64,000 nucleotides of DNA, taken from Patiria pectinifera (taxonomy: Eukaryota; Echinodermata; Asteroidea; Valvatida; Asterinidae). Within the stretch, counting starts at the first letter, position 1; each line of letters begins with the position of its first letter. The stretch covers positions 28,398,392 to 28,462,391 of the forward strand of contig CM057142.1 of assembly GCA_029964075.1 (NCBI GenBank), in the 5' to 3' direction. The position numbers and the translations under genes are program-made. The notes under the pieces are model-generated. The model did no database searches. It saw only the letters and a list, made by a program, of their open reading frames with translations, and was not told the origin of the DNA. This document shows, in pieces, positions 34,084-61,225 of the stretch.

Positions 34084-34961
34084 TATGGTGTTCTATATCT
34101 GCCATCTCGCGTGGCGGATCTCGCGTGGCGGATCTCGCGTCGCGCCTCGCGGATCTCGCGTCGCGCCTCGCGCGTCGCGGATCTCGCGTCGCGGATCTCG
34201 CCTCGCGGATCTCGCCTCGCGGATCTCGCCTCGCGGATCTCGCCTCGCGGATCTCGCCTCCCCGATCTCGCCTCGCGGATCTCGCCTCGCGGATCTCGCC
34301 TCGCGGATCTCGCCTCGCGGATCTCGCCTCGCGGATCTCGCCTCGCGGATCTCCCTTCGCGGATCTCCCTTCGCGGATCTCGCCTCCCCGATCTCGCCTC
34401 GCGGATCTCGCCTCGCGTTTTTTTTCTTCTAGGTGTTGCGCATGCGCATTTCTTACGCACATTTTTATTCACAAGCCAATCTATAGGAGAGGCGTCTCTG
34501 AATGAGATATAGCCATCATTTCTCTTATATATATGCGCATGCGCAACACCCAGAAGAAAAAAAACGCAAGGCGAGATCCGCGAGGCGAGATCGGCGAGGC
34601 GAGATCGGCGAGGCGAGATCGGCGAGGCGAGATCCGCGAGGCGAGATCCGCGAGGCGAGATCCGCGAGGCGAGATCCGCGAGGCGAGATCGGGGAGGCGA
34701 GATCCGCGAGGCGAGATCCGCGAGGCGAGATCCGCGAGGCGAGATCCGCGAGGCGAGATCCGCGAGGCGAGATCCGCGAGGCGAGATCGGCGAGGCGAGA
34801 TCCGCGAGGCGAGATCGGCGAGGCGAGATCCGCGAGGCGCCACGCGAGATCCGCGAGGCGCCACGCGAGATCCGCGAGGCGCGACGCGAGATCCGCGAGG
34901 CGCCACGCGAGATCCGCCACGCGAGATCCGCCACGCGAGATGGCAGATATAGAACACCATA
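34084..34961. mobile_element. Foldback element built of 12-bp repeats (FB-1)
   Basis: Ends TATGGTGTTCTATATCTGCC and its exact inverse GGCAGATATAGAACACCATA. Flanking GTTTTT (34078-34083 and 34962-34967) is a likely 6-bp duplication. Both arms consist of tandem GGATCTCGCCTC units (about 25-30 per arm, with GCGTGGCGGATCTCGC-type variants at the outer ends) and face each other across a spacer at 34450-34530. That spacer itself begins and ends with inverse copies of GTTGCGCATGCGCA. Since 12 is a multiple of 3 and stops are absent, long frames of Arg/Asp/Leu/Ala/Ser arise on both strands; none is a gene. Confidence 0.85.
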
Positions 34962-37498
34962 GTTTTTTATATATTTTTCCAAACTCTTGTCTAGATAACA
35001 TTTTGGGCATAATTTCTGTATTTCTGTGTAAACATTCATCCCAGTCAAGCAATTGTATGCATCCATTGTCACTGCCATAGGGACTTATAATTACTGATTT
35101 TATTCCAAAAATGTGTGGGTTTTCAACCCGAATTGGCAAAACTAAAGTAAATATACACAATTGTGGTGACGTTATTTAATGCTCTGCAATTGATTCATGT
35201 AATAACTAAAAGAAACGTATACATCAAAACAAACAAAATGGTACAGATTGAGAGGTGAAAATTACATGCGCTTCTCGCACCAATGGCGGCCACGCTACAT
35301 ACTGAGCATGTATTGTTGTTAATTATATAGCCATGAATTTCAGTCATAGGATAATACTTCCGTGATAGGCTTTGAAAATGGAAGTATTTTTGACTTTAGT
35401 TTATGAGCACCGATGTCTTTACAACGGTTGCCATGGTAATAATAAGCACACTACAGAAGTGTATTTGGTGCCACAAAACTTCATGTTGATTAGGCAAATA
35501 CAAATTTGGAGGACACTCCCATTAAAAAATACTTCAGACCCTAACTACATGTATATAGCCAAGTCAAGTCAGATTGAAATTCATGCAATCAAATTGATGC
35601 TGTGTTCTCTCGGAGCTTTCACTTGAGTGATCGTTGTTTTAAAGTACATGTATTTCAATATAAACAAACAAATAAGAGTTAGTTGCTCTCTAAATCGACA
35701 GATCTTTTCCGTTTTGAAAATAATAAAATAAACGTCATTTTGTTCACCACACCTTTTACTGTAATTCCAAAGTAGCTTGCAATATAAACAAATGTGTACA
35801 GCGTAAATGCGTGTGTCCAGATCACCCTTCCCACCCCACCTACCCCGCGACATACACACCCCTTCTCCTCCTCACTTTTCGGATATTTCAAGCTGCCCCG
35901 TGTTGTAAAAAAGCCACCTTACATAATTCAGACTTTCCCCAAGGCCATATGCATGTAAGTAATCTCAACAAAATTGTTCTTGTTGACTTGTTGGGGAGGG
36001 CGTGGTTATCTTTGAGCTTTGGGAGTGGGGGTGGCAGGGAAAGGGGCTATCTGTGAGACGGCTGTTGGTGTAGATCGTAAAAGGTTCACTTTCAAATTGA
36101 TATCTAGTATTTACAATTTAATTTAGGCAAATACATGCAGAAATCAAAATCTGAATTTGGTGGCAAAGGAAGGAGCGGGGCCTAACTGGGAGGGGAGGAC
36201 TGGACATCATTTGAATAATGGATGCACTTCAATCAGAGGACAATGGATATGGCCATTATTATTCATTGCGGCTTGCAATCACATGAGTTTTGCCCATGTG
36301 ACAATGATTGTACCGACAATGCTAAGTTATTGGTGGGTGGTCACACCTCACCCTCAACCCCAAGCAACGCCCCGGGGGTGGGGAAAGGGGAGGCTGTGAA
36401 AAGGAACTCTGTTATTTCTAAAGTGTTCACTTGCATATTATTTATTTACATTTGTTTTGTTATGCAACATACACATTCAAAATTCGGTGGCACAGGGGAG
36501 TGGGCGGGGCCTAGCCAGGTGTGGGGGAAGTACACTACCTTCTATTCATCCAATGGTCTAAAAATGATAAACAGTCTGATTCTGTTTGTGAAAATGTGCT
36601 AGATTAATGAACAATACCGATTATACAAGTTTAATACCCAAAACAAAGGAAAACACTGAAAATACACTTTTTAAGGTTTTTGTGAAATTTACCATTTTTG
36701 GAGCGCTGCTGCACAAAGGCTATACAATAACCCAAAATTTTCTCACCAGATATGAAAAGACCAATGTCTGAACTAACCATAGCCGAAGGGAAATTATTCT
36801 GAGTGCCCTGGCAAGTGCCATTTTGGAGGGATAAAAATGGGGTAAAAAATGCAATTTTGCTAGTTGTAAAAACATGCTGTATTATAGGGCCTAAAAATAA
36901 TATAAAGGAGATTTTTCAGAAGTGTTTTTATTTTTTTCTTGTAAGGGTAAGGATGATACTTTGTCATGATATAGTTACTTTTGTGACATTACTTTACAGT
37001 TTGGCTTGATGACCTTTGAAAATAACGCAAAAAATGAATTTCTGCAGCTTCAAAATTGCCGAAAAATGGCCAAAACACATAATGGCCCGTAACCATGGCA
37101 ACGGGCAAAATATCGGATTAAAAAGTCTATTTTGGTTACTTGCTCCCAAAGTCCTTTCTTCCCACAAAGTATTAAAAAATTCGATTTTTTGAGCGTGGAC
37201 ACTTATATGAAGTATTTACACGAAATGACTCTTAAGTCTTATTTACTAAAATTTTGGTGGGTTCTTGTAAGTGAGAAATTTGGGGTTATTAAAGATTATT
37301 TGAGCGCCTCATTAGGAGAATAGTCGGACCCTGGGGTGAACCTGAGTTGGGAACCAGTGTAGGCCTAGTTCAGTCCGAAGGATTGCTTTCCGTTGTCTGT
37401 GCCATCTGGTGTAGCTGCGGCATCGCGTCCCTAGAGGTCTGGGAGCACTCTCTATTAGGAGATAACGTGGCTGTATAAATGCTGTTCTGAAGGTCTGC

Positions 37499-37832
37499 CA
37501 AGGGCGGATCCAGAACACAATTTTTTGGGGGGCCCAAAACAAATTTTGGTCCCCCAAAAAAGTGGGTCAAAAAAATTACGGCGTGGGGTTCGGGGCCCGC
37601 TTAAGGCCCCCGAATTTTTTTTGGGGGATTCTAGATGCTCTGTGGTGCGATCTGAGGCAATTTCTGACCACTTTAACCAATGTTTTTTTTGAGGAAAAGA
37701 TGGTGGTGTACTCATTGCCTGCCTTTATTGCGATGTCCAAAAAACAAAACAAAAAATTGGTTTCGTTTTTTTTTTGGGGGGGGGGCATGGCCCCCTTTGC
37801 CCCCCCCCCCCCTCCCCCTGGATCCGCCCTTG
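37499..37832. mobile_element. hAT-like MITE family 1, best-preserved copy
   Basis: Perfect 15-bp terminal inverted repeat CAAGGGCGGATCCAG / CTGGATCCGCCCTTG and an exact 8-bp duplication AGGTCTGC (37491-37498 and 37833-37840). Length 334 bp; G and C runs near the ends; interior GATGCTCTGTGGTGCGATCT. An 8-bp duplication with C-A-rich ends is typical of hAT. No coding capacity. Confidence 0.9.
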
Positions 37833-38334
37833 AGGTCTGCCTGCCGTTGGACGGTCGGGGCGACCTGGACACCTGAAAGCTTGTCCTTTCTCCTGCCGGG
37901 GAATGGTTCACCTGACTTTAGAGGGAATTGCGTGCCGTTGTTCCGTGCCTAGCTGCGGTTGGGTTGCCCTGGCTGATCTGAGCGCTAACGATTTCCAAAG
38001 ATTTACTGGGTAAGCTTCCAGAACCTTGCGGAGGGAACTACGAGACATTTATCACCCTCTAAATAATCACGGGGTTACCTTGAGAGATTGGATATAACTT
38101 GCCGAGTGTGTGGGTTATTTAAGAGTCGCAAGTACCTCATTTTGCAGTTTGGCTTATGGGATTGTCGAGCAAGTCACCTAGGATTATTCGTGTATAAATC
38201 TAGCTTGTTTATTGTAGCCATTTATGTTATCTTGAGTTAATTGAAAGAACATGTCCCAATTATTTCGTTCAGTGGTGCAGATGTCCACTTGTTGATAAGT
38301 AAAACAAGTTCTAATACCAGTTGAATATAGTTCT

Positions 38335-38445
38335 CTATATTTGAGGTATACATACCGAAGTCCTGAGATATATTTGAGGTATATTTGAGGCACATAATTC
38401 TGAGGTATATTTGAGGCACATAATTTAGAGGTATATTTTTTGGGC
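38335..38445. repeat. Short tandem repeat, GAGGTATATTTGAGG type
   Basis: Four or more imperfect copies of GAGGTATATTTGAGGCACAT, period about 30-33 bp, inside the LTR-like insertion. Confidence 0.7.
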
Positions 38446-38835
38446 ACACCGTTCTTAAGTCTTTTATTGAATTATTAGGTAAAACATAACCCTTAAGTGT
38501 TATATTGAAATACAAAGTCAAAGTTATAACTCGTTAAATTTTATATTGATTCATAAAGAGAAAGACAACTCTTAAGTTTTGCATTGACTCACAAAGTGAA
38601 ACATAGACCCTTCAGGTTTATATTGAATTAATAAGTAGAAGTTAACCCTTAAGGTTAGTATTGAATACAAAGAACAAGTTAACGCCTTAAGTGTCATATT
38701 GAATAACTAAGTAAAAGAGAAGCTCTTAGATTGTATTTTAAACCTTGAAGTAAAGGTTAACTCTTAAGTTTTATATTAAGTTTTCAAATATAGGTTAAGC
38801 CTTAAGCTTTATATTAAATTAAGTTTAGGATAAGT
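38446..38835. repeat. Diverged ~57-bp tandem repeat, CTTAAG-containing
   Basis: About seven copies carrying AACCCTTAAG or ACTCTTAAG followed by TTTATATTGAATT and AAGTAAAAGTTA-like sequence. Similar wording (GACTCTTAAGTCTTATTTAC) lies exactly at the right edge of the nested 6.5 kb element at 37226. Confidence 0.65.
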
Positions 38836-39339
38836 CAAGGGTATGAAGTGGTGCAGTTGACCACTCGGTTATAATAAAAGAGACTTGATCCTTGCTAAGA
38901 TTATTTGTATACGCTAGTAGCTTATCTTTGTATAAGTTTGCCGTTGTATATACATGTATACATGTCAAGTGTGAGCCTGGATTAAAAATAATTGATCATC
39001 GTCTTTGGAATCACTTGTCACTGTGAAGCTTGTGTAGTCCAGCTCTCTGTGGGACATATCTGAAGTAAGTATATAAGTTAGTCCTCTCTATTGTCAATAA
39101 AGTATATCGCTGAAGAACAGATCGGTGGTATATTTCTGCCAAACGAACTGCCCCTAGGCTTAGTTCGTTAACTATATGCCCCTTACGTCTGTGTAGCCGT
39201 TCATCCTTGCGTGAGGTGAATACATATGTTTGTGGGTTAAGGCCAGGTCTAATTCCATCCTTCAATCAGGTGAGACTGTAAATTGTGTCATCTAATTATT
39301 CCCACCACAAAGGGTGTATAGCTCATTTCGCCACAGTAG

Positions 39340-39980
39340 GGTCAAGCCTTGGTGGGGGGGGGGGAGTCTCAATCATTAATACGGAGCATTATTTCCCATT
39401 GACACAATGTGTTTGCTTGGACGTGCAGCCATCCAGAATAACCTTAGAGGTCTCTGAAAGGCTCCATGAAATGAATTGAAAAATGAAACATATTTCTCCG
39501 AAAAAAATATAATAAGGCCAACCAAGAACAAAAAGTGTGGTGTTAGTCTGTTACATGTTTTTTTGTTCTTTTTTTTTTGGGGGGGGGGGGTTGACATTTC
39601 TATAGCCAAAACAATAGGGTTGGAAGATAGTCGTTACATTTTTCTTTTTTTCTCTATTTTGCAGGCATTTGTTAACGTGAATCATTATGCACCACTGACC
39701 AACTAAAAAAAATATAAACATGTAAATAAACTTTGTCTGCAAAAACTAGGATGGGGCAACACCACAATTTGTTGTGAACAAATATATTTCGGTTCAGCAT
39801 TAGTTTCTAGGCTGGGTGGGGTAGTAAGAAACAGCCATTTATTTCCTTTGGCCGAAGACTGACTTTACAGTTTAAAGGTTTCAGTACACAATTCGGATAC
39901 CCACTATTTCTTAGAGGCAAATGCTGTTCCTAGGCCTATTATTACTTGGAAGCAAGCGGGGTTGAGGTGGCTTGCCAAAG
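39340..39980. other. Unit DNA right of the 9 kb insertion
   Basis: Continues the homology to 12125-12830 of unit 1 (CATGAAATGAATTG, CCAACCAAGAACAAAAAGTGTGG). No gene. Confidence 0.6.
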
Positions 39981-40086
39981 GATACATAGCATGAAAATAG
40001 TTGGATTAGAACCCTTGACCCTCTGATCATGAGTGACAAACCCTAACTTCTAGGCCACACTTACCCATATGACTCAAACCCACACA
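39945..40086 (-). mobile_element. tRNA-derived SINE fragment
   Basis: On the minus strand GTGTGGCCTAGAAGTTAGGG resembles an internal A box and GGTTCTAATCC a B box, about 40 bases apart. They are followed by CCTTTGGCAAGCCACCTCAACCCC, the GGCAAG-CAC-T-ACCC word common in 3' parts of animal SINEs. It is a decayed head-plus-body fragment, not a functional tRNA, since acceptor stem pairing is lacking. Confidence 0.5.
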
Positions 40087-40406
40087 TTGCTACAACTACC
40101 GGCAAGATGAGGTAGGAGTTTGTCACAACCGACATTTTAAGAATGGCACACCTATCAAATCGCTGCGTCGAAATATACGTCTTGTCTAAAGCTATTGTCT
40201 AGGTCATGGTATCAAACTCTGACTAGTCTAGTCACGGACTCCCGTTTTTGTCTTTACCCAATGTGCATGATGGATTGACGGGAAGTTGTGGTCGCAATTT
40301 GTGATTGTATTATGATCATTAATTTGCATTTCAAAAAGCCGTAAATTGAACTGCTGTTGTTTTGTTTTCTCAAATCACTTATTTATTCCCCCTATAAGAT
40401 CCGTCG

Positions 40407-40717: not shown

Positions 40718-40989
40718 CTGCATGGTGCAGTATTCGAACTGTGTAAAGCTAAATAATTGGTACTTTTTATGACGTGGTTTCAATTCTATCAGTGTTTGCT
40801 GTGTGTTGTTCATCAAAAATGAGTAACAAACCAACCCATTTATTTGATTTCATGTTACGGTTTAAAGGTGTCGCTGAAATCGGGAACAACATATAGGCCA
40901 CCGTGCAGTTTTTATAATGCGAGGGGGCAACACCGCACGGGCCACAAAATCCCCCGAAACCGCGTTCACTGGGCGTGATGTAAAGGTAC

Positions 40990-42440: not shown

Positions 42441-42572
42441 CCTTTGAAAAAAAAAATAACGCACCCCAGGTTCCCTACCCCAAGTTAAACCCAAGTTTCT
42501 CCGCTGGCTTGAGTACGATTTAATTCCTCATATAATCCCGATTAACTGAAGCACCAACTGTACATTGAATAA
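42441..42572 (+). pseudogene. Unidentified C-terminal exon, copy 2 (damaged)
   Basis: Begins as copy 1 (acceptor TTTAGTGCAG, then CCTTTGAAAA) with three extra A. It loses one C in AAACCCAAG (frameshift) and lacks about 30 bases after CATATAATCCCGA. Compared with 18157-18305 it cannot encode the peptide. Confidence 0.6.
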
Positions 42573-42609
42573 ATGAATCACGGCCAGTGTATAAGTAACT
42601 TGTCTATCC

Positions 42610-42860
42610 ACCAATCACAGTTTGTCGGTGACAAGTGGGTGACAACAAGTCGGTGACCACAAGTGAGTGGTCTGAGACTGACAGGTTGTGCGTGTCAATC
42701 ACAAATCTCATGTTTGGATGTGTCACCGACATCAAAACAATATCCACCAATAAGAAGCGGCCATTTCAATCTCAGTGACTAGTTTTTATGGTGACTTTAT
42801 AGCCTCAACGACATTAACATTGCTTCCGTATCATTAATATGAAGTGAGTCGGTGATGTGT
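42610..42860 (+). promoter_or_regulatory. GTCGGTGAC-motif regulatory region, C1q gene 3
   Basis: GTCGGTGAC near 42624 and 42649, GTGGGTGAC near 42637, the inverse TCACCGAC near 42723, and AGTCGGTGA near 42847, in the same order as upstream of gene 2. Confidence 0.55.
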
Positions 42861-42937
42861 GATTGACAGCGCATAGGGGCAATGCATTCACAAACCAGGT
42901 CCGAGTATTTAGTCACTGCTCAGTAAATTGATGACAC

Positions 42938-42945
42938 TATTTAAG
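42938..42945 (+). promoter_or_regulatory. TATA box (TATTTAAG) of C1q gene 3
   Basis: Same box and spacing to exon 1 as at 18669 and 60155. Confidence 0.65.
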
Positions 42946-42967
42946 GCATTTGGGGCCTTCTCACCCC

Positions 42968-43045
42968 TCACATCAACCACAGGTCATCACCACCTTCGGA
43001 CGTCAACCAGAGAAAGAACTGACTGCAAGAACAAGATTTTGCTCG
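42968..43045 (+). other. 5' UTR exon 1 of C1q gene 3
   Basis: Start estimated from the TATA box; donor TTTTGCTCG|GTGAGT. Conserved GGACGTCAACCAGAGA and ACTGACTGCAAGAACAAGAT. Confidence 0.65.
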
Positions 43046-44561
43046 GTGAGTGTTTGAAACAATCAATTTTCTTCTGAAGAAATTTGTTGTTTTTTGCACA
43101 ATGTGTTTGAATCAATGCGGGATTCAGATTTTGTTGAATGATGCCGATTAAATGATTCTCCAACAGTGAGCGCGGTACGCGGTAGGCTTGATAGTTCCCA
43201 AACTTTGTGTGCTTGTGAAATGTAGTTGCTTTAGGACTGAAAAAAATATACAAAGATTTTCATGGACAAAATGCTCGATTTCAATATTGACTCTGATACT
43301 GATACACGTTTGCCAGCAGCAAAACCAGCGCACTAATTTCCGATTCAGAGATTGTGCCTTTTCCCAACCACTTTGGAGTTGAAATACATTAGCTCGATAC
43401 TTTACATGCATTAATCAAGGCTCGTCTGAACGAGTTAATTTTAACCAAACACTTTTGAAAAATTATCGAGCTATTCTATTTCAGCTCTTAATGTAAACAG
43501 TTGGTGCGGATGCAGACCACGGTTTTGTGACGGCAAATTTAAAGGCAACAACAATGAGAAATTCCTGTCTGGCAATATTTCCGCTAATACTTTCATTGTG
43601 CACTCTCAGAAATGAATTGTCCAAATACTAAATTGTTTCTTTACTTCTTGAACAAAAGTCATTTGGATTCTTGTCGATATGGATAATACACCATAAAGTC
43701 ACATTTATTGCCTTTTTTTATTTAGGTTTGACTAGTAGCTTGGATTGTTTTCTGACCGCAGTTTTTCGCAAGTGTAAAAAATCAAGTTCCCTGCTATGAT
43801 TCAGAACAGTAAATATTTATTGTTCATTCAAACTAATAATTCAGAGGAACTACAAATCGGTGTTTCACATTTCGGTTTCAAAAAAAAAAATCTCGCAAAA
43901 CCTGGACTCTTAATAACATGGCCAATATTTTTGGCATGATCAAGCACACTCTTTTTGTGTGCCTCATTTTATCCCATTGACATTATCACTTCCATTTTCA
44001 AACATGAAATCCTAGTGCAATGTACTCACATTATTTCCGGATATCACTCACACTCAATCAGGATAAAAAGTTATGCGGAAGTTGGTCACGGAAGAACGTA
44101 TACAGGTATCCGGACATCTCAAACATGCCGATCGTATTTGTGTTATTAATGATGTGGATATTCTCAGTACCTTTTAACTTTGTTGTTAAACGGTGTCATT
44201 TCGCTATAGTTCACAGTGCGCCATTCCGGTTTCCTCAAGTTACTTTTAAGCATTGCAGGATAAAAGTGTCACTGGTCAGAATAGACTAGCGGGCGCAAAT
44301 ATAAACGCACTGGATGATGATGATGCACACAGTTTTATACAACAACAAGTTCAATAGCTGGATGCATTTTTGTAGAATTCATGGATAGATTTGATTTTTG
44401 GAAAACGCATTTTAAATAGTCTACCCAAAATTACATGTCTACTATACAGACTTTTTTGGCCGTATTGTACTTGTGGAATTCAGCTATGCCTCCCCACCAG
44501 ACTCCAAGTTATCTCCTAGAGGATTTTTAATGAGTCATATTTTTGTTGGTATTTTTTTCAG

Positions 44562-44622: not shown

Positions 44623-44859
44623 GTGAGTGTCAGTTATTTGACATTTTCTTCATTCAAGCATCAGAACAGAGCAATGATTTGGTAGGAGACTGTACGTTTT
44701 TTCTATGCATTAAATCTTTTTGGTCAAAATTAAAAACCAGAAAACGTCATTCAGTTACCTCTACGAAAAATATTATCCTGGCCATTACGGTCAGGCTTCT
44801 CAATTATTATTCATTCTAAAAAAAAAAAAAAAAAATCTAAGCCGTGATGGTTTGTGCAT

Positions 44860-47040
44860 TCAATAATCTCGTCTAAAAAAATATCATCCCAGTCATGATG
44901 GTTAGTCTCCTCAATTATCCCTTCTAAAACATATCCTCCAAGCAATGATGGTTTTTATTTCATTAATCCCTTCTACAAATTATTCTCCTAGCCGCGATGA
45001 TGACTCTCCTCAATTATTATTCATTTTAAAAAAATTGCTTCTAAGCCGTGATGGTTTGTGTGTTCAATAATCCCTTCTAAAAAAAATATCATCTCATTCA
45101 TGATGGATTGTTTCCTCAATTATCCCTACTAAAACAATATCCTCTAAGCCATGTTGGTTTTTATTTCAATAATTCCTTCTACAAAATATCCTTCTAGCCA
45201 TGATGTTTAGTCTCCTCAATTTTTTCTTCTAAAATATCCTCCTAGCAGTGACGATTATTTTCCTCAATTATCCCTTCTAAAATATATCATCCAAGCCATG
45301 ATGGTTTCCATTTCAATAATCTCTTCCAAAAAAATCCTCTTAGCGGTTATGATTAGTAAGTCTCCTCAATAATTATCACAGCTAAAACATATCTTCCTTG
45401 CCAGGATAAGTCTCCTCAACTGTCCCTTTAAAAAAAATATCCTCCTAGCCATGAAGGTTAGTCTCCTCAATTATCCCTTCAAGAAAATATCCTCCAAGCC
45501 ATGATGGTTAGTCTCTTAGTTATCTCTTCTTAAGAAATATCCTCCAAGTCGTGATAATTAGTCTCTTCAATTATCTCTTCTACAAATATCCTCAGAGCAA
45601 TGATGGTTTTCATTTCAAAAATCCCTTCTAAAAGTATCCTCCTAACCGCGATGATATGTTACCCAAATTATCCCTTAAAAAAACCTCCTAACCATGATAG
45701 TTAGTCTCCTCAATTATCCCTTCTCAAAAAATGCCACCCTAGCCATGATGGTTAGGCTCTTCAATTACCATTAAAAAAAAATATCTTCCAAGCCGTGACG
45801 GTTTGTCTGTTCAATTATCTCATCTAAAAATACCCTCCAAGCCATGATGGTTTTATTTGAATAATCCCCTAAAAAAAATCTTCCTAGCCATGATGGGTTG
45901 TCTCCTCAAGTATCCTTTCTAAAACAATATCCCCCTGGCCATGATGGTTAGTCTCCTCAATTATCCCTTCAAAAAATATCCCCCAAGCCATGATTTCATT
46001 CAATAATCCTTCCACAAATATCCTCCTAATCGTGAAAATAAGTCTCCTCAATCATCCCTTCTTAAAAAAAATCCTCCTAGCCGTGATGATTAGTCTCCTC
46101 AATTATCCCTTCTAAAAATACCCTTCTAGCCATGATGGTTTGGCTCCTCAATTATCCCTTTTAAAAAAAAATCATCCTAGCCATGATGGGTTGTCTCCTC
46201 AAGTATCCCTTCTAAAACAATATCCTCCTGGCCATGATGGTTAGTCTCCTCAATTATCCCTTCTAACAATATCCTCCAAGCCGTGATGATTAGTCTCTTC
46301 AATTATCCCTTCAAAAAATATCCCCCAAGCCATGATTTCATTCAATAATCCTTCTACAAATATCCTCCTAACCGTGATAATAAGTCTCCTAAATTATCCC
46401 TTCTGAAAATATCCTCTTAGCCATGATGGTTAGTCTCCTCAATTGTCCTTTCCAAAAAAAATAGCCTCCTAGCTGTGATGATAAGTCTCCTCAATTATAC
46501 CTTAAAAAAATCATCGTGGCCTTGATTGTCAGTCTCCTAAATTATCCCTTCTAAAGAAATATCCTCCAAGTCATAATGGTTAGTCTCTTTAATTACCCCT
46601 TGACAAAAAACCTCTTTTGCGTGTTGATTCGTCTCCTGAATTATCCCTTCTAAAAAATATCCTGTTAGCCGTGATGGTTAGTCTCCTCTATTATCCCTTC
46701 TAAAAATATCCTCCTTGCCATGATGGTAAGTCTCCTCAATAATTATCACATCTAAAAAGTACCCTCCTTTGCCAGGGTGATAAGTCTCCTTAAATATTCC
46801 ATTCTAAAAAGTATCCTCCTAGCCTTGATGATTAGTGTCCTCAATTATCCATGATGGTTAGTCTCCTTAATTGTCCTTTCTAAAAAAAAAAAAAAAAATA
46901 GCCTCCTTGTCATGAGTGTTTGTCTCCTTTATGATCCCTTCTTAAAATTTCCTCCAAGCCATGATGGTTGGCCTCCTCAATTATCCCTTTGGAAAATATC
47001 CTCCTGGCCATGATGATTAGTCGCCTCAATTAGCCCTTCT
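44860..47040 (-). repeat. Minisatellite B, ~49-bp unit, about 44 diverged copies
   Basis: Imperfect copies of GTCTCCTCAATTATCCCTTC, then TAAAAATATCCTCCTAGCCA, then TGATGGTTA. This is the inverse complement of the unit in minisatellite A. The array lies in the intron between 5' UTR exon 2 and exon 3 of C1q gene 3. Some copies are truncated and some blocks of several copies are themselves repeated (45880-45990 and 46160-46360). Confidence 0.9.
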
Positions 47041-47572
47041 AAAACAAAATGCTCTCTGATGAATATTTTGAATGCTTTTTGTTGTGCAGTTGGCAAACAT
47101 TTTCCAAATGGTAAAGAATTTACAAGACACATTCGGTTGACACTTGACAAACATATGGTATGTCTGGGAACAAAAGCTTCTGCCTGAGGCAATGTCCACA
47201 ACATTACAAAAAGTGGGAACGCCACTTTTCCTTTGTAAAGTAAGAATTCAAAGTAAATTTGACCGCAAATCGTTTGACATACCCGCTGACGGCATGATGT
47301 CGTCACAACTTTTTTGGACCAGGGTTCAAGTTCATCCGTTTTCCTTGATCCGTTTCGAAGGAATTAGGTTGGTTTTTAATTAAAGGTTAATTGTTTGCAT
47401 AAATGTTGAATGTTACCGTCATAACCCCGGAAGGAAAGGTCAGACGACTTTGTTGTCGAAAATCACAAATGTTTATCAAGGTATCCTCTATCAGATTACA
47501 AAGTGTAAACATGATTGTTCTTTTTTTGTTCATAAGCTTTTGGCATGGAAATAGTTTGTAATTTGGTACCGA

Positions 47573-49552: not shown

Positions 49553-49654
49553 ATGGGTTTGTTTATATAATTGTGGCACTCTGGAACGAGGCCGAAATAA
49601 ATGGGCGGAGGAGAACGGCACTTGAATTTCCTGTCTTCACAGGTGTTTTAATTC

Positions 49655-50392: not shown

Positions 50393-50929
50393 CGCTGGTG
50401 GCGCCAAACTAGGTGATTGCGTAATACAGAAGTGGGTGGATGGATAATGTGCTAAAGAAATAGTCCCTTACTTAAAGAAACTAAATATACAAGAAATACA
50501 AAAAAGTAAAGGGGGGTCATTTTTTCGCACCTGTCACATAATTATCATGTCAGCACCGGGAAAAGGGCGCAATGAGCACCCCCCGACAACAACAACAACA
50601 AAAGTATCTCTAGAATGATCAGCCCGATCGGCGTGTAATTTTGTAATCGGCGGGCACAGTAATAACAGTGCAATATGAGATGGGTTGCATTGGCAGCCAA
50701 ATATATAAACTAGGCGTTTTAAAAGTTTTACTACTGTTATATCACGCCGAACACATTTTCTGAGTAAATTCAAAATATCTAGTCCTACATGGTTTTCAAA
50801 TGACTGCGGATTATTAAGAATTTACCACTTATTGTACAATTTATCCGAGTTCAGTATTTGAACATATCTTCTTCTTTTTTAACCTTTTCCTCGGATTTGT
50901 TTTAATTTCAGGATTTTTTTCTGTACAGA

Positions 50930-51535
50930 ATGAAGATCTGTGTGGCAACCGTTCTTTCAATCGCCCTCCTTCTGGGTAACTCTGTCAACCTCCGAGCTTC
51001 CGTTACTGGGCCGATTCCCTCGGACGGTGAGGGTCCTGCGTCTCAGGCGTGCCCGACAAGCTGCCAGGGGCCTGCAGTTTTAGGAACAATTTTACAAGGG
51101 CCAAAGGGTGATGCAGGTGAGCCATGTCAAAGGGGTGATCGGGTAGCATTTACTGTGACGAGGACGAACATCGCGTTTGCCTCTACGAGTGGCGACACCC
51201 GTTTGCCCTTCCAGGAGACTGAGACGCTTCTGCCGGGTACTAGCTTCGATCTTGGGACCGGCACATTCACGTGTAGTGTGCCGGGCACCTACATGTTCAT
51301 ATTTTCCGTGAACAAACATTCTTCCAGCAGCGGCCTGTCCGTTTATCTTAGGAAGAACGGTGACCGGATTGTCACTGGCTATACCAATGATTCAGGTCAC
51401 CAGGAGCAGGTGTCTGGGAGCGCAATGCTGGTTCTTCTTCGAGAAGACACGGTGTATCTAACCATGTACGGTACGGCGTATAGTGGTTTATATCACTACA
51501 CCTCATTCAGTGGCTTCCTCCTTTACCCCGAATAA
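50930..51535 (+). CDS. Secreted C1q-like protein, gene 3 (very short stalk with RGD)
   Basis: A 201-residue protein. The signal peptide (1-23) and linker are as in genes 1 and 2. Cys residues are at 41, 45 and 66. The remnant stalk GPKGDAGEPCQRGD spans 57-70, where the Gly of one triplet is Cys. The C1q head starts at 71 (RVAFTV) and runs to 201 with LPFQETETLLPGTSFDL, CSVPGTYMFIF, LRKNGDR, SGSAMLVLLREDTVYL and SFSGFLLYPE. Relative to gene 1 an in-frame loss of 63 codons joins the stalk start directly to the head. Acceptor TTTAATTTCAG ends at 50911. The head is intact, so a functional secreted protein is likely, probably without a collagen triple helix. Confidence 0.92.
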   Translation: MKICVATVLSIALLLGNSVNLRASVTGPIPSDGEGPASQACPTSCQGPAVLGTILQGPKGDAGEPCQRGDRVAFTVTRTNIAFASTSGDTRLPFQETETLLPGTSFDLGTGTFTCSVPGTYMFIFSVNKHSSSSGLSVYLRKNGDRIVTGYTNDSGHQEQVSGSAMLVLLREDTVYLTMYGTAYSGLYHYTSFSGFLLYPE

Positions 51536-53856
51536 ATAAAAACAAAAATAATAATAAGCACAAAAAGATAAACGAGCATCAAGTAAGTTGCTGATTTTTT
51601 AGCCGTTTGCAATTTTAATTAGAAATAGCTTTTGTTTTCTTCAATTTGTTTTCCTTTTTCTTTTTTGTTTGTTTTGTTTTTCCGCTAAAGATGAAAAAGC
51701 GATTCTTTTTGTTCGCATTATTTGGCTTTGATAAGTGTGTGGCGTCATTGTGATGTCATACAAATGCAATGTTTTAAATTACATAAATATGGCTAAGCCC
51801 GATCGTCTTTACACTTGATGGCTAGGTATATAATATTACTAGTTCGTTAAATTCAAATTGACATTATGATTACGTCATCACCAGATATTTATTAGTTTTG
51901 TATTATTGTTTACATTTCCTTATACTAGCAAAATATGACATAAAATGCAATCCGATTGACCTTAAACTAGGGACAAAGAACCGATGTTTAGCTGTCCCTA
52001 GACAAGTGATGTCATCATGAGGTCATCAATAGTCTTTTTAGTTATTTTAAAGGTGTATATTTTAACATTTTATATTATTTTGTTAGAACCTCGTATGAAC
52101 ATTTTGACTGGAACGTGTTGCAGACACAAATTGGGGTAGCGTCTTTATGGCGTCCTAATGGTTCATTCGACGTCAACTTACAGGTTCAAATAAAGTCCTT
52201 TATCTGAAGAACTTAGTCATGGAACTACTTTCTAGCAAACAATTTACCTAACTTCATATGGACAAAAACCAAACAAAAATCCATACAAGAAAAACAGACA
52301 CTGTGGTTATAACTGAACAATCACAGGGCTGTTCCCAAAATGATTTGTTAATTGTCTATTGGAGAGTACAAATGTATTAATGATTTTTTAAAAATGTGTA
52401 AATAATGAATTTGAAATCATAATCTTTACTGATTGCACTTCATGTACAACCGGAAAGTAGGGGTCGCACGAGCGTGACATTGCAGTAGGTGTATTTGTTC
52501 ATGTCCAATATGAGGAACTGTGCAAAGAACTGGAATCGTTCCTTATCGTATTGTGGAGAAATGATGGCTACAAAATTGCCTCATTAAATATTCATGACGT
52601 TTCCTACTACTGTAGGGTATCAACCCGATTTGGTTAAAATTCATGAGATATGACAATAAGGGTCTAAAATTAAATCCGGAAGTAAAGTCACATTGCCTCG
52701 ACATACCATTGCTCATCTATAACACTTCCCTGTCTATGTAGATATCAAGGTTGAGATCCAGCGGTCAAATATTTATACAGTTATAAGACCGTAAACAAAT
52801 AAACATTTATATTGATGTCACGTGACCACCGATGACGTCACGATACCAAAGGGGAAATCTTAACGAAAATAAAAGCTGTTCCCAATTGAAATTGTGATGG
52901 CATTACCATAAGTTCGAAGGCTATGTTAACCGTGCTATTTTAAGCAAAACATCTGAATTATATCTCTTGCGGTTAAATTTTCCGCATTTTTTTTAAGTTT
53001 AAAAGTCTTTTCATTGTAATTTCCGGCTTGGTGACGTCATCAATCTTTATTCTCTTTAACTTGTTCTTAGCATGATTATATTCTTCAATTATGAAGCGAT
53101 TTCAGCCAACGTCACCACACGCAACAGCTGATTATTCATTTTAAACATTTTTCCCATCCTGCCGATAGAGGGCCCTCTAACCTTTATGACATCACCGTTT
53201 CTTGTTTTGTAAAGTACAGCCAGCCAACGACTAACATCGTCGAAAGCAAGTCACATTTCTTTTCCACATTTAAATTATTAGGCACTTTCGGTTTGGACCG
53301 GAAGAACGGGTCACGTGACGATTTGGCATGCAGGGAAAAAACTGAAAATCATGGATTATTCTATCGATTGCCGCAAAAGTCAAGTTCAGGTCTGTCTCGG
53401 TTGATGTTATATTGATTTTCAAAGACTAAATCAATACATATTAAAATTCTTGTAATTTGATGCATGATAACGCCATTATGACGTCACCTCCCGATCTACC
53501 TGGATACCAAGTTGGATCTCTGTTAACCAAATTCACTCTTACAGTTCTCTAGATATAGAGCTTTATAGTTTGCACATTTACTATGACGTCACGTGACCAA
53601 TGATGACGTCATCATAAAGTGACTCTAGTTCTCTATGGGGTCTTTACATAGGTTAGGTTTTATGAGAATACGAGTCTGTTTTAGGTCCAAAATGCCGCGG
53701 TGAATAAATGTGTGCAAAGGCTATTGGATTTGGAGTGAAACAAAAAGAAAACAAGAAACAAAGTAGAGCTATGTCTGTTGGATGAACAGAACACAGGTTT
53801 TTGCGCATTGAAACAATTACATATATATAATAATAATTTCACGAAATGGGGGCCCA
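51536..53856. other. 3' flank of C1q gene 3, no gene; many TGACGTCA-like sites
   Basis: AT-rich sequence with no conserved frames. TGACGTCA or close forms occur repeatedly between 51860 and 53620 (for example 52833, 53033, 53480, 53584 and 53604), several next to CACGTGAC. They may be regulatory, or part of an old repeat. Confidence 0.45.
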
Positions 53857-53859
53857 TTA

Positions 53860-54883
53860 TTTCAAGACACCAATGATTTCCTCCGTAAAATTGAACGCAT
53901 CAATGAATCTAGTCCTCTGCCCGCCAACACCCTCATTGCTACCATGGATGTCAAGTCTCTATACACCAACATCCCACACAACGAAGGCATCAGCGCATGC
54001 GCCGAAACACTCAATAATCGCCCTAGCCACTCACCCTCGACTCCCACTCTCACCAATCTCATCAGTTTAATCCTCACCCTCAACAACTTCGATTTCAACG
54101 GCACACACTACCTCCAGGTACACGGCACAGCCATTGGCACAGCAATGGCCTCCAACTATGCCAACCTGTTTATGGGCCGACTAGAGTCCAATATTCTATC
54201 ACAGACCCCGTACAAGCCCCTACACCGGTGGCGATACATTGATGACATCTTTCTTATCTGTATGCTCGGATGACAACATCTTTGGGATGCGTCTTTCTGA
54301 TCTCAAAACACAACGCTCTAACCGAGGCTATCCCCCTAAGATCATTGATGCAGCTTACACCATAGCACGTAACCTCAGCCGGCAAAGCACACTCAAGCCT
54401 AACAGTAAGGAACGCAATACCGGTAACCAACGTATCCCCCTATGCATTCAATACGATCCATCACTCCGATACACTAGGGAAATACTGAACACCAACTTTC
54501 ATATCATACAATCCTCCGACAGACTCAGATCCTGTTTTTTCACACACCCCATTGTCTCTTTAAAAAAAGCCCCATCTCTCAAAAACATCCTCGTCTCCTC
54601 CTCTCTCAAACCCATTGACTCCATGCCACTCGGATTTTTGAAATGCTCAACAAAACGATGCATAACCTGCAAACATGCAAAAAATGACACCCAAATCAGC
54701 AGTACCTCAACAACGGGCGAAACATTTCCCATGAAGGCAAACTGAACATGCACCTCACAAAACATAGTTTACTGCATCACATGCACCAAATGCAATCTGC
54801 AGTACATTGGGGAAACAAGTACTTCACTCACCACCAGATTCAGAGGGAACCGATCAGACATTTCCCGCAATAAAAATGACCGT
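53860..54883 (+). pseudogene. Penelope-like element reverse transcriptase/endonuclease, truncated and internally deleted
   Basis: One frame (53860-54273) reads TNDFLRKIERINES...ATMDVKSLYTNIPHNEG, later FDFNGTHYLQVHGTAIGTAM, ASNYANLFMGRLES and RYIDDIF, the RT catalytic box of Penelope-like elements. Then the frame changes and reads CSDDNIFGMRLSDLK, RGYPPKIIDAAYTIAR, RIPLCIQYDPSLRYTREILN and KRCITCKHA. After one in-frame TGA (54743-54745) comes NIVYCITCTKCNLQYIGETS, a GIY-YIG-like endonuclease start. Roughly a hundred or more residues normally between the YIDD box and the linker are missing. The 5' part is absent and the 3' part ends abruptly where unit DNA resumes near 54884. Dead copy. Confidence 0.88.
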
Positions 54884-55899: not shown

Positions 55900-57415
55900 T
55901 TAGTCCCCTGCTGACAGCATATCCTTGGATAATGTCTCCAGCCAGCACATGTACATGAAAGCTGAACAAGTACGCTTCCTGGGAATAGGTAGACTCCTGC
56001 AAGAAATCAAAGAAAAGGTTCTAATGGACCCTTCCTGCATGTCAATCAACAGTGGACATTGGCCAATCAAATCACCACTTTTGATCAGGTGACCACAGTA
56101 GCTCAGTCAGACTGGGTCACAAGCAGCACTGTTAGATTTATTGTTCACCCCGCCCCAATTTTTTTGCACCAGAGGTTAACACCCCCCCCCCCAGTATTCT
56201 GTAAAGAGTGGCCTTTTTACACAAGTAACTTTTAGTTTTTACATAAGTCTCCTTAGTTTTGTTTAAAAAGTTTCTAATTGTTTCGCCAGCGGCTTTTTAA
56301 GAATTGTTGGTATTTCGTGTAAACGTCAGCAATTGTGCCGCCATAAAAAGCGCCACCCATTGACCTACCGCCGTTTGCGAGTTAACCACGCCTCTTAGAC
56401 AACTCTATAAGCCTTTTCGCCGATTCCGCCATCTTTGAATTATTGGTTTCTGGGGGGGGGGGGGATTGCAATAAAAATACGTCTCATCATGCAACTGTAG
56501 CTAAGAATGATGGGATGTCTTTTCATTGTAATCCCCCTCCGCCATTTCAAAGATGGCGGTATCCGCGAAATGGCTCATGGAATTTTGTACATTAATTTTT
56601 GTTTGTCTCACATTTTGGCGTTCTGCGTCCATTTGTATATCATGTTTAGACAATAGTTCACAAGCTGCGTTGACGCAATTCCACTGTGATAGGTTAATTG
56701 TCCGATATTGGCCATTATTGCCTGTTTGAAAAGCACCCCATAGGTAGATGGTACCCAGCCCCGTCCCCCTACGCCCCGCTTTTTGATTTTACGGAGGCCA
56801 GGGAACTAGTGAAAAAACCATATCTACATGTACCTTCAGCACAAATTGGCGAGCGCCCTTTTCATGTCTAAACGACCCCCCCCCCAATAAAAACGACCTG
56901 GCTTAAAATCGTGAAATCTCTATAGACATTAAAAGTAATTTTCACAGCTCTCAAATAGCGAGCGTGTGGTTTTACAGTGGTGGATCTATAGGCGGTCCCC
57001 CCCCCCGGCGCAAATAATCGAAACATTTTCCAGATCCCCCAACTTGACATCGCACCCCCCCCCAGCCAAAGCTAGATCCACCCCTGTTTAGGATTTCACG
57101 TTAGTTTCTGCTATAGTGAGTAGGTTTGCGTAATTGTGAAGTAAGTGCCCTTAGATTAGCCACTCATTATTTTCATGGGAATTGCCAACACTACAACAGA
57201 CATTTTTGCATGAGACTTAGCAATTATGGCTTTTGCAAAAGTGTAAACAATCAGTTACAGAGGATTACTTCTGTATTTACAGGGATAGCGCACAATTTCT
57301 GTGCTAGCGTGCTGTAAGCACAGAATGAGGATCATAAATACAGAATTGTGTGCTTAAACCATGAAATTGAGTCTATTGAGTTATTGTCTATTGAATAGTG
57401 GCTTTGTGTACTTAC

Positions 57416-57483
57416 ATGACAATGAGCTGAGCCTCCTGGGAATGTTGGAGAAGTAATTCACGGATCCGCATCTGTCTGTTGGT
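57416..57483 (-). pseudogene. SLC12-like penultimate exon, unit 3 (intact splice sites and frame)
   Basis: 68 bases, same length and phase as 11290-11357. The final codon split is AT|G, giving the family's IVMSLP junction. It is the best-kept block of the three copies. Confidence 0.8.
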
Positions 57484-57670
57484 CTGAAAGAAAAGAAAAA
57501 AACGATTTAAGGCGAAAAAATGAAGTGATTTGTTGATGTTTAATAAAGTCGAGTTCCATGCACTTGGCAAATAAAATGAACTAGAGTTGTTCAATTTGCA
57601 CTGAAAGTGATCAATACTCATTTTTGAAAAATCACCCACCAGAATGTCAAAGGTTGGACGCAATTAACAG

Positions 57671-57967
57671 ATTTTTTTTTACCTGACTTTTTGCTTCAAA
57701 TGTCGACTGATGATTGCAAATGTTGCCCGACTAAACTGAGTGCAAATATACAGGAGTCCAGAGAGGCCACATAAAGCTTATTCTCGATCATAACCCCATC
57801 TAAAAACACGTTAAAATTGTGCAGCAGCAGGATTCCAGTCAAACCAGTGAGTTTGGCGGTTTGAGACATCATCTTTCATTGAAAAAGAAAAACTTTTTCA
57901 TTTTGCCGACGCGCATGGCTACGGCGACGCGCGCGCATACCAGAAACCGGAGACTTTTTTTTTGGCC
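57671..57967. mobile_element. PIF/Harbinger-like MITE, copy 4 (left end lost)
   Basis: The interior GTGCAAATATACAGGAGTCC...GATCATAACCCCATCTAAAA matches copies 1 and 3. The right end CATACCAGAAACCGGAGACTTT...GGCC is complete and followed by TTA (57968-57970). The left terminal repeat is missing. Confidence 0.7.
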
Positions 57968-58195
57968 TTATGTATGGGTACCAGCATTTACAAGCCACGA
58001 TGGCACCTAAATGGCCCTCTTTGATAGTTTCCACTGTATGGGGGGGGGGTGCTTGAGCGCAAGAAAGAGATTCTAACTTCTCTTTGAGCGTAGTGACTCT
58101 TCCTTGCTGATCTTCCAAGAAAACTTCTCCGTGGTCTCCCCTGTTTCCTCATCCAGCATCCAGGGGTTTGTTAGCTCCATAAACCGTCTCAGCCC

Positions 58196-59672
58196 CGGGC
58201 GAGGGGGGGGGGGGTTAAAGGTACCCTCCTCTCTGGATACAATGCTGCATGGTTCAGTACGTATTGCGTTTCATGTTTTTCACTCTGGAGTTTGGGACAA
58301 ACAAAAAGAGTGTCGCTGAAATTTGGAACAGCATTGAAACGCTAGTATGGGCCTGATATGTGTCGAGGTGTACCCAAGGCGACCATGCAGTTTTCATAAT
58401 GTAAGGGGCAACAAAATCCCCCGAAACCGCGTTTGCTTAGGACCTGATGAGGCGGTACTTGTGGAGCCCTCGACAGTTCAATTTCAATGGGACAGACACA
58501 CTGGAAAACACAGCGCGGTGCTCACACGATTAATGGACCGCTGAAATATATTGAATCTTTCTGGAAGTCAAATTATGCGTAATGATGCAGCGTGAACCAT
58601 GCACAAAATGTCCATTTACAAGGTTCACGCCGTGTGCGCTACGTGTATGCAGTGTGCGCGCATCAAAGACAGCTAAACATTTTCTGATTCGCTGTTTCTA
58701 CCATGTCAATATTTGTTGCATGTCTGATAATTTAACAAATGATTGAATTTACGAGTTTTCGAATGTCACAGCGATTCCGTTTTAAAGCTACCCAAAGCTG
58801 GCTGGCCCAAAGGCGCAGCGTTACAGAAACACTGATATGGCCTGAAACGTGGTGAGTTTAATGCTGTTTTCTAATGTGAGGGATATAGCACCGCACGCGC
58901 CACAATCCCCTCAAACCGCGTTCAATGAGGGGTTGATGCGGCGCAAAGAGTGGACCGCTCACCGTGCATTATTCAATGGGAACGTGGAAACAACGCGGTG
59001 TGGCAGTAAGCGGGTGAAACGGCCACAATGCCGATGTTTCTGAACGGCCAATCTATTCAAAGAAAGGCAGCAAGAACCATGCACGAAAAACTTCTCTTGC
59101 AAGGTTCACGCTCTGTGTGTTTTGTATGCGTAGGATCAGCTAACAATTTGTTCCAATTCACTGTTTCTATATGGCATTTGTCTATTTGTGCAGCAAGATT
59201 TCACAAATACTTCCATTTTACAAATTTCCGATTTTGTCAGTGAATTGGTTTTATTGGTGGGCCTACTGTGGGCCCGATGTCGGTATAGAAAGACTGATAT
59301 GACCTGATTTTTGGTGCGGTTTACGCCGAGGCGACCGTGCAGTTTTCTAATGTAAGGGATCCAACCGCTCAGGCCACAAAATCACCTAAATACGCGTTCG
59401 CTGAGGGTTATTGCGGATGAGGGTTGAATTTGTATTGAGTTGAATGGGAAATCGGCGCGGTTACACAGGCGATCGTGAACCGCCAGAATGCTGAATTTTT
59501 TGCCTTGTGGGGCCTGGATCTTCCTTGCAAAAGGACCCGTACAAAGTCGCTGATAAAGCACCAAAACAGAGGCACACCCACCCTCAGTGGAAGCCCCCCC
59601 CCCCCGCCCCATTTTGAAAACCTGAATTACATTCACTGTTGTAATAATACGTATATTTTGCATTTAGTGCAG
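58196..59672. other. Intergenic part of the segmental duplication, third copy
   Basis: A G run near 58205 marks a junction; then the sequence parallels 40700-42440. No gene. Confidence 0.6.
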
Positions 59673-59822
59673 CCTTTGAAAAGAAATAACGCAGCTCAGG
59701 TGCCCTACCCCAAGTTAAACCCCAAATTTCTCCGCTTGCTCGAGTACGATTTAATTCCTCATATAATCCCGAATATATCCACACAGTTTAATAGACTAAA
59801 GCGCCAACTGTACATCGAATGA
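59673..59822 (+). CDS. C-terminal coding exon of an unidentified protein, copy 3
   Basis: After acceptor CATTTAGTGCAG an open stretch gives NNAAQVPYPKLNPKFLRLLE, then YDLIPHIIPNISTQFNRLKR, QLYIE and TGA (59820-59822). It agrees with copy 1 at all but a few residues (P-A, W-L, K-N). One extra base near the 5' end changes the entry phase. Conservation of the peptide over the long silent spacing suggests past or present selection. No parent gene recognised. Confidence 0.5.
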   Translation, partial: PLKRNNAAQVPYPKLNPKFLRLLEYDLIPHIIPNISTQFNRLKRQLYIE

Positions 59823-59859
59823 ATCCAGTGTATACGTCACTTGTCTATCCACCAATCAC

Positions 59860-60085
59860 AGTTTGTCGGTGACAAGTCGGTGACCACAAATCGGTGACCA
59901 CAAGTGAGGTTGTGTGTGTCAATTATAAATTCCATGTTTGGATGCGTCATCGACATCCATTCAATATCCACCAATTAGAAGCGGTCATTTCGGTGACTAG
60001 TTTTATGGTGACTTTATAGCATCAACGACATTAACATTGCTTTCGTATCATTAACATGAAGTGAGTCGGTGATGTGTGATTGACA
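59860..60085 (+). promoter_or_regulatory. GTCGGTGAC-motif regulatory region of a fourth C1q-like gene
   Basis: GTCGGTGAC near 59864 and 59877, TCGGTGACC near 59890, AGTCGGTGA near 60064, with the same neighbours as before genes 2 and 3. The inverse site has changed (GTCATCGAC near 59946). Confidence 0.5.
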
Positions 60086-60154
60086 GCGCATAGGGGCCAT
60101 GCAATCACAAACCATGTCCCAGTTTTTAGTCACTGCTCAGGAAATTGATGGCAC

Positions 60155-60162
60155 TATTTAAG
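60155..60162 (+). promoter_or_regulatory. TATA box (TATTTAAG) of a fourth C1q-like gene
   Basis: Same box, context GATGGCACTATTTAAGACAT as at 18661. Confidence 0.6.
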
Positions 60163-60184
60163 ACATTTGGGGCCGGCCACCCCT

Positions 60185-60263
60185 CACAGCAATCAAATCT
60201 GATCGCCATCTTCGGACGTCAACCAGAGAGAGAGAACTGACTGCAAGAACAAGATTTTGCTCG
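60185..60263 (+). other. 5' UTR exon 1 of a fourth C1q-like gene (continues beyond the window)
   Basis: Conserved exon 1 body and donor TTTTGCTCG|GTGAGT. No exon 2 or coding exon is found before base 64000, so the rest is expected to the right. Confidence 0.55.
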
Positions 60264-60371
60264 GTGAGTGTTTGAAACAATCAATTTTCTTCAGAAGAAA
60301 TGTTTTGCCGTTTGCACAATGTGTTGGAATCAAAGCGGGATTCAGAGTTTGTTGAACGTTGCTGATTAAAT

Positions 60372-61225
60372 TATGGTGGCCCTGAAGGGACATCACATAT
60401 CGCAAACGAGTGCGCATACGTATGCGATGTCGCGAAATTTATCGCAAATGTGTGCACACGTATGCGATGTCGCGAAATTTATCGCGAATATATGCGCACA
60501 CGTATGCGATGTCGTGAAATTAATCGCGAATATGTGCGCACACGTATGCGATGTCGTGAAACAATTCGCGAATATGTGCGCAAACGTATGCGAATTTGTT
60601 TGCAATGTCGTGAATTTTATTGCATACCTTGTCGCATACCTTTCAGTAAAATTCCTAATGAACTGGGGAGGTGTAGCAGCTAGTCTGGAATCTAGACGGA
60701 CTGTTTGCGCGCGCAAGTTTCAAACTTTCGCGCGCAAATTTCAAAGTTGCGCAAGTAGCAAGCTTGCGCTCGACAGTACTAGTAGTAACGATTGCACGAG
60801 GAACAGCGTGCGCGCGAAGGTTTATTAGTCAGACCCTATTTATATCTAACAGTACGTCTAGATTCCAGACTAGCTGCTACAACTCCCCAGTTCATTAGGA
60901 ATTTTACTGAAAGGTATGCGACAAGGTATGCAATATAATTCACGACATTGCAAACAAATTCGCATACGTGTGCGCACATATTCGCGAATTGTTTCACGAC
61001 ATCGCATACGTGTGCGCACATATTCGCGATTAATTTCACGACATCGCATACGTGTGCGCATATATTCGCGATAAATTTCGCGACATCGCATACGTGTGCG
61101 CACATATTCGCGATAAATTTTGCGACATCGCATACGTGTGCGCACACATTCGCGATAAATTTCGCGACATCGCATACGTATGCGCACACGTTTGCGATAT
61201 GCGATGTCCCTTCAGGGCCACCATA
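60372..61225. mobile_element. Foldback element built of 42-bp repeats (FB-2)
   Basis: Ends TATGGTGGCCCTGAAGGGAC and its exact inverse, flanked by TTAAAT (60366-60371 and 61226-61231). The uninterrupted site survives in unit 3 as GATTAAATGATTCTCC near 43146. Arms hold tandem 42-bp units with CGTATGCGATGTCGCGAAA and TTATCGCGAATATGTGCGCA (about five per arm) around a GC-rich centre (60690-60850) with CGCGCAAGTTTC words. The 42-bp period keeps frames open, giving 'CAHVCDV-K-IANM' peptides on both strands; these are not genes. It sits in intron 1 of the fourth C1q-like gene. Confidence 0.9.

Follow-up and report, generated by a model that had tools for sequence, protein, structure and literature searches.

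Most foldback transposons have been placed in the Mutator superfamily, and Galileo in the P superfamily, in the available part of PMC4079207. According to the same part, different transposons may each give rise to the foldback form on their own, and the majority of known examples seem to be Mutator-like. In the Galileo arm, a transposase site was footprinted and further sites were identified by the authors in the tandem repeats, according to the accessible portion of PMC3688188. In complete IS3EU families the termini are always TA..TA and the target site duplication (TSD) is usually 6 bp long, and GingerRoot is similar, as given in the excerpt of PMC10045372, where TSDs of about 4, 15 or 25 bp are stated for IS481EU and of 6 bp for Polinton. 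For fungal IS3EU, the excerpt of PMC12730594 gives TAYGG..CCRTA ends and a terminal inverted repeat (TIR) of >30 bp. In the present study, two foldback elements, FB-1 and FB-2, were analysed in a stretch of 64,000 nucleotides from Patiria pectinifera (assembly GCA_029964075.1, contig CM057142.1, positions 28,398,392 to 28,462,391), hereafter called the window. Like IS3EU and GingerRoot, both have a 6-bp TSD and TA..TA (TAYGG..CCRTA) termini. Unlike IS3EU as described in these excerpts, which mention no foldback members, they encode no transposase and carry long tandem-repeat arms. We consider it probable that FB-1 and FB-2 each represent one copy of a non-autonomous, high-copy foldback family, and that both families are moved in trans by an IS3EU-type transposase.

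FB-1 is 878 bp long with the TSD GTTTTT, and its outer repeat is perfect over 57 bp (script). FB-2 is 854 bp long with the TSD TTAAAT; its outer repeat is perfect over 23 bp and is followed by near-perfect arms of ~370 bp. The coordinates, TATGGTG starts and CACCATA ends proposed by the first-pass annotation were exact for both elements when checked by script, and the perfect outer repeats, tandem arms and short asymmetric centres that it described were likewise found. The parts of the two elements are as follows.

34078-34083, unstranded: left copy of the FB-1 TSD, GTTTTT
34084-34961, unstranded: FB-1, non-autonomous foldback element, TATGGTG...CACCATA
34084-34103, forward strand: FB-1 end, TATGGTGTTCTATATCTGCC, basis of the 23-bp end search of the genome
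34104-34417, forward strand: FB-1 left arm, array of 14- and 21-bp units
34418-34564, unstranded: FB-1 boundary tracts and asymmetric centre (GCGCATGCGCATTTCTTACGCACA...), target of the 24-base probe
34565-34941, reverse strand: FB-1 right arm, inverted array of the left-arm units
34942-34961, reverse strand: FB-1 right end
34962-34967, unstranded: right copy of the FB-1 TSD, GTTTTT
60366-60371, unstranded: left copy of the FB-2 TSD, TTAAAT
60372-61225, unstranded: FB-2, non-autonomous foldback element
60372-60394, forward strand: FB-2 end, TATGGTGGCCCTGAAGGGACATC, used in the end search of the genome
60410-60593, forward strand: FB-2 left arm array, 42-bp unit
60650-60702 (bounds approximate), forward strand: FB-2 inner non-repeated arm segment X, mirrored on the right
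60703-60850 (bounds approximate), unstranded: FB-2 asymmetric centre, target of the 20-base probe
60960-61199, reverse strand: FB-2 right arm array, 42-bp unit
61226-61231, unstranded: right copy of the FB-2 TSD, TTAAAT

In FB-1, a 20-bp end leads into arms of 14-bp units (ATCTCGCCTCGCGG, ATCTCGCGTGGCGG) with 21-bp variants, and a T-tract boundary separates them from the short asymmetric centre; the 12-bp units first reported for this element were thus replaced by units of 14 and 21 bp. In FB-2, the 23-bp perfect end is followed by arms of 42-bp units, as had been proposed, then by an unrepeated inner segment mirrored on both sides and by the centre. Long inverted tandem-repeat arms, a short centre and a TSD, the marks of the foldback architecture, are therefore all present. 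Folded as single-stranded DNA, both elements gave a near-complete hairpin, with -545 kcal/mol against a shuffle mean of -249 (z -34) for FB-1 and -465 against -140 (z -58) for FB-2, each with 20 shuffles as controls. The inner repeats had been called unrelated, and this was borne out by a sensitive blastn search (E 1e-3). FB-1 and FB-2 showed no mutual match, and each matched only itself in the window; therefore, their arms appear unrelated at that sensitivity. Their ends are identical over the first 7 bp only, and further similarity was not found between them.

Within the window, FB-1 and FB-2 are the only TATGGTG..CACCATA pairs <5 kb with identical 6-bp flanks (script). In the 264 kb around it, a search for TAYGG..CCRTA pairs that have >=11/16 matching end bases and an exact 6-bp TSD again returned FB-1 and FB-2 only, and the reversed motif returned 0. 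Across the 613.5 Mb of the genome searched, with <=3 mismatches allowed, the 23-bp FB-1 end had 368+385 = 753 matches (control 0+1) and the FB-2 end 297+314 = 611 (control 0+0). A chance origin is excluded: the two pairs in 264 kb stand against none for the reversed motif, and in the genome the control ends occur once and not at all, compared with 753 and 611 times for the ends of FB-1 and FB-2. A first, looser pattern (TATGGTG, then TATG after 10-20 bases) was rejected as uninformative, with 1901+1893 = 3794 matches versus 2958+2972 = 5930 in the control; in eight loci taken from it, a TAYGG..CCRTA pair with an exact 6-bp TSD was not found.

Pair statistics were taken from the first 100 ends listed per family, all of them exact matches. 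FB-1 ends formed 43 converging pairs <8 kb (86/100 listed ends), with no diverging and one same-strand neighbour; FB-2 ends formed 35 (70/100), with one diverging and no same-strand neighbour. Among the matches listed, FB-1 pairs were 227 to 5543 bp long (median 988), and FB-2 pairs fell at 590-971 bp (18), 1.6 kb (1), 2.5-4.6 kb (15) and 7.5 kb (1). Forty elements were read at both ends. The 25 of FB-1 comprised the copy in the window, 20 of 23 further listed pairs <=1,047 bp, three long copies and a 24.5-kb pair; the 15 of FB-2 were the window copy, 10 of the 18 listed pairs <1.1 kb, three long copies and a 39.7-kb pair. All copies except those of the window were chosen by exact end matches and thus represent the better-preserved ones.

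The insertion of FB-2 could be followed inside the window itself. Its flanks match two further tandem units at 85-87% identity, and in both paralogous units, which lack the element, the match of the left flank runs into that of the right flank by exactly 6 bp.

18879-18884, unstranded: FB-2 empty site in the paralogous unit 18255-19450, exactly the 6 bp in which the flank matches overlap
43148-43153, unstranded: FB-2 empty site in the paralogous unit 42545-43718, from the flank-match overlap, with the sequence inspected

Therefore, FB-2 lies in a single member of a set of three duplicated units and is flanked there by a 6-bp duplication. Because the empty sites are clean, entry of FB-2 after duplication of the unit is favoured over traceless loss elsewhere, the two being not formally separated. 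For the flanks of FB-1, no such paralog was found within the window.

An exact 6-bp TSD was present in 39 of the 40 elements, namely 25/25 of FB-1 and 14/15 of FB-2; the remaining one, L071, had a single mismatch (5/6). When four duplicated loci on contig C4 (L034-L037) were counted as one insertion, FB-1 had 22 independent TSDs. The 36 independent exact TSDs of both families were 36 different 6-mers with the weak palindromic consensus STATAS. Its symmetric pairs T2/A5 (37/72), A3/T4 (37/72) and S1/S6 (45/72) each gave p of about 1e-4, computed after the pattern was seen, with the families pooled, local base composition and positions taken as independent. In this pooled test, the two families lean to the same target. 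The 6-bp length that the first-pass annotation had given for the duplications stood. Their supposed T/A-richness is only mild (65.7% A/T, compared with 59.5% across the surrounding 264 kb), and a palindromic preference takes its place. That annotation had named a lack of further copies, or duplications that fail in other copies, as results contradicting its proposal; further copies are numerous and the TSDs hold, so neither was encountered.

These data also bear on whether transposons are involved at all. Palindromes could also arise locally, when satellite arrays are duplicated in inverted orientation, or be an artefact of the assembly; the satellite-like arms and the occurrence of one FB-1 insertion in four duplicated copies on C4 would fit this. 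The 36 independent insertions with TSDs and different flanks, the fixed ends and the FB-2 empty sites are contrary to this explanation. It was rejected as refuted by TSDs and empty sites, and we give it almost no credence.

The arms were the most variable part of both families. In FB-1 their order is layered and mirrored, with 14-bp A units, 21-bp units, 14-bp B units and the T-tract, and this is clearest in short copies. Arm size ranged from 2 to about 190 units, and in long copies one layer is expanded. In L050, 131 of the roughly 187 units of an arm are A units in one unbroken run, and in L029 the runs are 47 and 54 units long. One arm of L051 contains runs of 32 B and 41 D units, and its other arm has 2 units. 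The perfect outer repeat of short copies spanned 31-126 bp in FB-1 (n=20) and 29-120 bp in FB-2 (n=10). The FB-1 centre probe (24 bases) was present in 19/20 other short copies and the FB-2 centre probe (20 bases) in 10/10, with segment X on both sides in 8/10. The ends are thus fixed, the centres mostly fixed and the arms variable. In the 40 elements read, the modular foldback design of the first-pass annotation is upheld, combining constant ends and 6-bp TSDs with tandem arms that are exchangeable. Its single foldback family is better seen as two families, which have the seven terminal bases, TSD length and target in common.

On C4, the single FB-1 insertion in the four duplicated loci L034-L037 had lengths of 571, 741, 421 and 571 bp. 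Therefore, the arms change after insertion. L037 carries the arm unit strings of L034 in reverse, yet the two are not identical (36 ungapped differences in 631). L053 and L054 have the first 26 bp of FB-2 with a different 42-bp unit (30/42 positions identical between two representative units); therefore, arms diverge under a fixed end. As a separate observation, L057, where the FB-1 end was read on one side only and which is outside the 40-element count, has an FB-1 end with almost no arm and then an apparent nested inverted-repeat element of ~770 bp (position 135-900, by eye).

Two end pairs were far longer than the rest. An FB-1-ended pair of 24.5 kb lies at C10:8322168-8346693 (L055/L056) with the matching TSD GGAAGA, and an FB-2-ended pair of 39.7 kb at C7:21065560-21105293 (L060/L061) with the matching TSD CTTTTC; about 1 kb at each end was read. 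The idea of giant elements was set aside. In the C10 pair, the left-arm array is interrupted by about 23 kb of other sequence, which is more simply read as a later nested insertion. The C7 pair, whose inner flanks match the 4.6-kb element L052 at 94.6% and 92.8%, is also compatible with nesting. A more far-reaching proposal is that one IS3EU-type transposase reads only the 7-bp end together with a docking array of 14-, 21- or 42-bp units, and so moves families with unrelated arms. In that case, arrays could be exchanged or rebuilt and very long interiors transported, since the 24.5- and 39.7-kb pairs with intact 6-bp TSDs exist. We regard this proposal as doubtful.

As to classification, the published IS3EU rules were compared with both elements. 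The TSD is 6 bp throughout, apart from the one mismatch. FB-1 and FB-2 have TATGG..CCATA ends, and the other 38 elements have them by selection. The TIR exceeds the 30 bp of the fungal families in FB-1 (57 bp), and in FB-2 the perfect 23 bp continue into near-perfect arms. IS3EU membership is therefore supported by ends and TSD, the transposase excepted. The first-pass annotation had taken the ends to be distinct from known ones. They do not constitute a new type, because end motif and TSD length match the published IS3EU signature, and for the same reason "most novel mobile system" was too strong. The end type would thus be known, and the new part, within the literature searched, would be the joining of foldback arms to IS3EU-type ends. 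IS3EU-ended foldback elements were not met in that literature, whose scope excluded Repbase and most subscription journals, and no report of IS3EU together with sea urchin was found in it, nor was IS3EU met in the few echinoderm papers inspected. Two oyster satellite repeats are labelled similar to IS3EU in the available part of PMC8268682, where the word foldback occurs solely within a cited title; therefore, tandem repeats linked to IS3EU have a precedent.

Among described foldbacks, Galileo resembles FB-1 and FB-2 in its short conserved terminus, long internally repetitive inverted arms and variable arm content, as far as the accessible portion of PMC3688188 goes. However, Galileo belongs to the P superfamily with a P-type THAP transposase, and the ends of FB-1 and FB-2 point to a different superfamily. 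Tetris is alike in its foldback form, in the tandem repeats of its arms and in that no coding copy was found, but its TSD is 8-10 bp versus 6 bp here, all according to the available part of PMC4079207, so the TSD of a Mutator-type foldback is absent. The Mutator-type foldbacks Tm1 and FARE have the foldback architecture in common with FB-1 and FB-2, as far as the sources at hand describe them. In sea-urchin TU elements, the inverted repeats are made of short tandem repeats and the TSD is taken to be 8 bp. Long inverted repeats, which FB-1 and FB-2 have as well, are reported for TU by Lieberman (1983).

In the mechanism that we propose, the ends would be recognised, and 6-bp staggered cuts made, by a cut-and-paste enzyme acting in trans, an IS3/IS481-like DDE transposase of the IS3EU superfamily. 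The arms would consist of subterminal sequence whose repeats grew in number through slippage or unequal exchange. They may act as multiple transposase docking sites, by analogy with what is reported for Galileo, or they may be passive and merely tolerated. A candidate type of enzyme is encoded in the genome. The IS3/IS481-type DDE protein P0001 matched rve (4e-11) and, weakly, HTH_21 (0.001, under the Pfam cut-off), and it matched the IS481 (1.5e-28) and IS3 (1.8e-14) profiles, both under the curated cut-offs. Such scores are as would be expected of a distant relative. A P0001-like, IS3/IS481-like sequence group was found on C15, C4 and C22. A transposase-bearing repeat on C15 (L058, C15:11183116+) and C4 (L074/L075) has >6.5 kb in common at about 97%. 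The open reading frame (ORF) next to its transposase frame is presumably OTU-like, and a tandem repeat of about 84 bp was noted inside this ORF.

Several results weigh against IS3EU mobilisation. A transposase element with FB-type ends (TATGGTGTTCTATATCTG or TATGGTGGCCCTGAAGGGAC), which the first-pass annotation had suggested seeking, was not found in the copies read, and a transposase was recognised in none of the family copies read. The three FB-1 pairs read among the five listed of 2-8 kb (5.5, 3.1 and 2.5 kb) were arm expansions, the 5.5-kb copy also holding a foreign insert of about 1.45 kb. The three FB-2 pairs read among the 16 listed of 2.4-8 kb (4.6, 4.1 and 2.5 kb) had no transposase in their ORFs by eye; one of the three has an ORF that we take to resemble the end of a long interspersed element (LINE) reverse transcriptase. 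The C15/C4 repeat had no TAYGG..CCRTA ends with a 6-bp TSD within the fetched pieces and did not match the tested FB loci in blastn. Finally, the two arms of one element were no more alike than arms of different elements, with identities of 0.971 within and 0.974 between in FB-1 (16 elements; left out were L035-L037, which repeat the insertion of L034, the long copies L029, L050 and L051, and two elements <400 bp) and of 0.961 and 0.960 in FB-2 (11 elements). Homogenisation of arms within an element, considered as a candidate process, is unsupported by these values.

The missing partner would suit movement by another superfamily with 6-bp TSDs, such as Polinton/Maverick, an IS481EU-like group or an undescribed one. 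Polinton also yields 6-bp TSDs, and an IS481 profile search of the genome gave 2155 first-look candidates, of which 68 were scored; many candidates presumably lie in long open frames like those of Gypsy integrases. On the other hand, TA..TA and TAYGG..CCRTA are the termini stated for IS3EU, the TSDs of IS481EU are of other lengths, and the AG..CT ends of Polinton/Maverick differ from the TA..TA ends of FB-1 and FB-2. We judge this alternative improbable. A further question is whether IS3EU mobilisation involves one enzyme. A single transposase serving both families is unproven, because their ends agree in the first 7 bp only, which is another point on the negative side. FB-1 and FB-2 may instead use two transposases, with TATGGTG a convergence within the end consensus of one superfamily. 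Only the seven terminal bases are common, the arms are unmatched, and the IS3EU consensus TAYGG alone covers 5/7 bases; against this, TSD length and palindromic target bias are common to both, though these may be superfamily traits. The chances of two enzymes appear evenly balanced, and the idea is compatible with IS3EU mobilisation at the superfamily level rather than exclusive of it.

The surroundings of the elements were also inspected. Two long arrays at 16082-17212 and 44836-47044, ~28 kb apart and in opposite orientation, have a similar unit of ~50 bp (TTAGAAGGGAATTATGGAGGAGACTAACCAT...; by eye). Three similar ORFs lie at 3492-4316, 26375-27151 and 50906-51535, and we take them to have collagen-like repeats between a signal-like start and a C1q-like tail. 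Part of the window consists of duplicated units. ORFs at 53812-54745 presumably resemble the reverse transcriptase of a Penelope-like element.

The IS3EU end signature found here supports a repeated origin of the foldback form from different transposons. Two many-copy families with different arms and the same target preference provide a natural comparison of the role of the arms, and the duplicates of a single insertion allow changes in arm length to be followed. By analogy with Galileo, such strong palindromes may also promote rearrangement.

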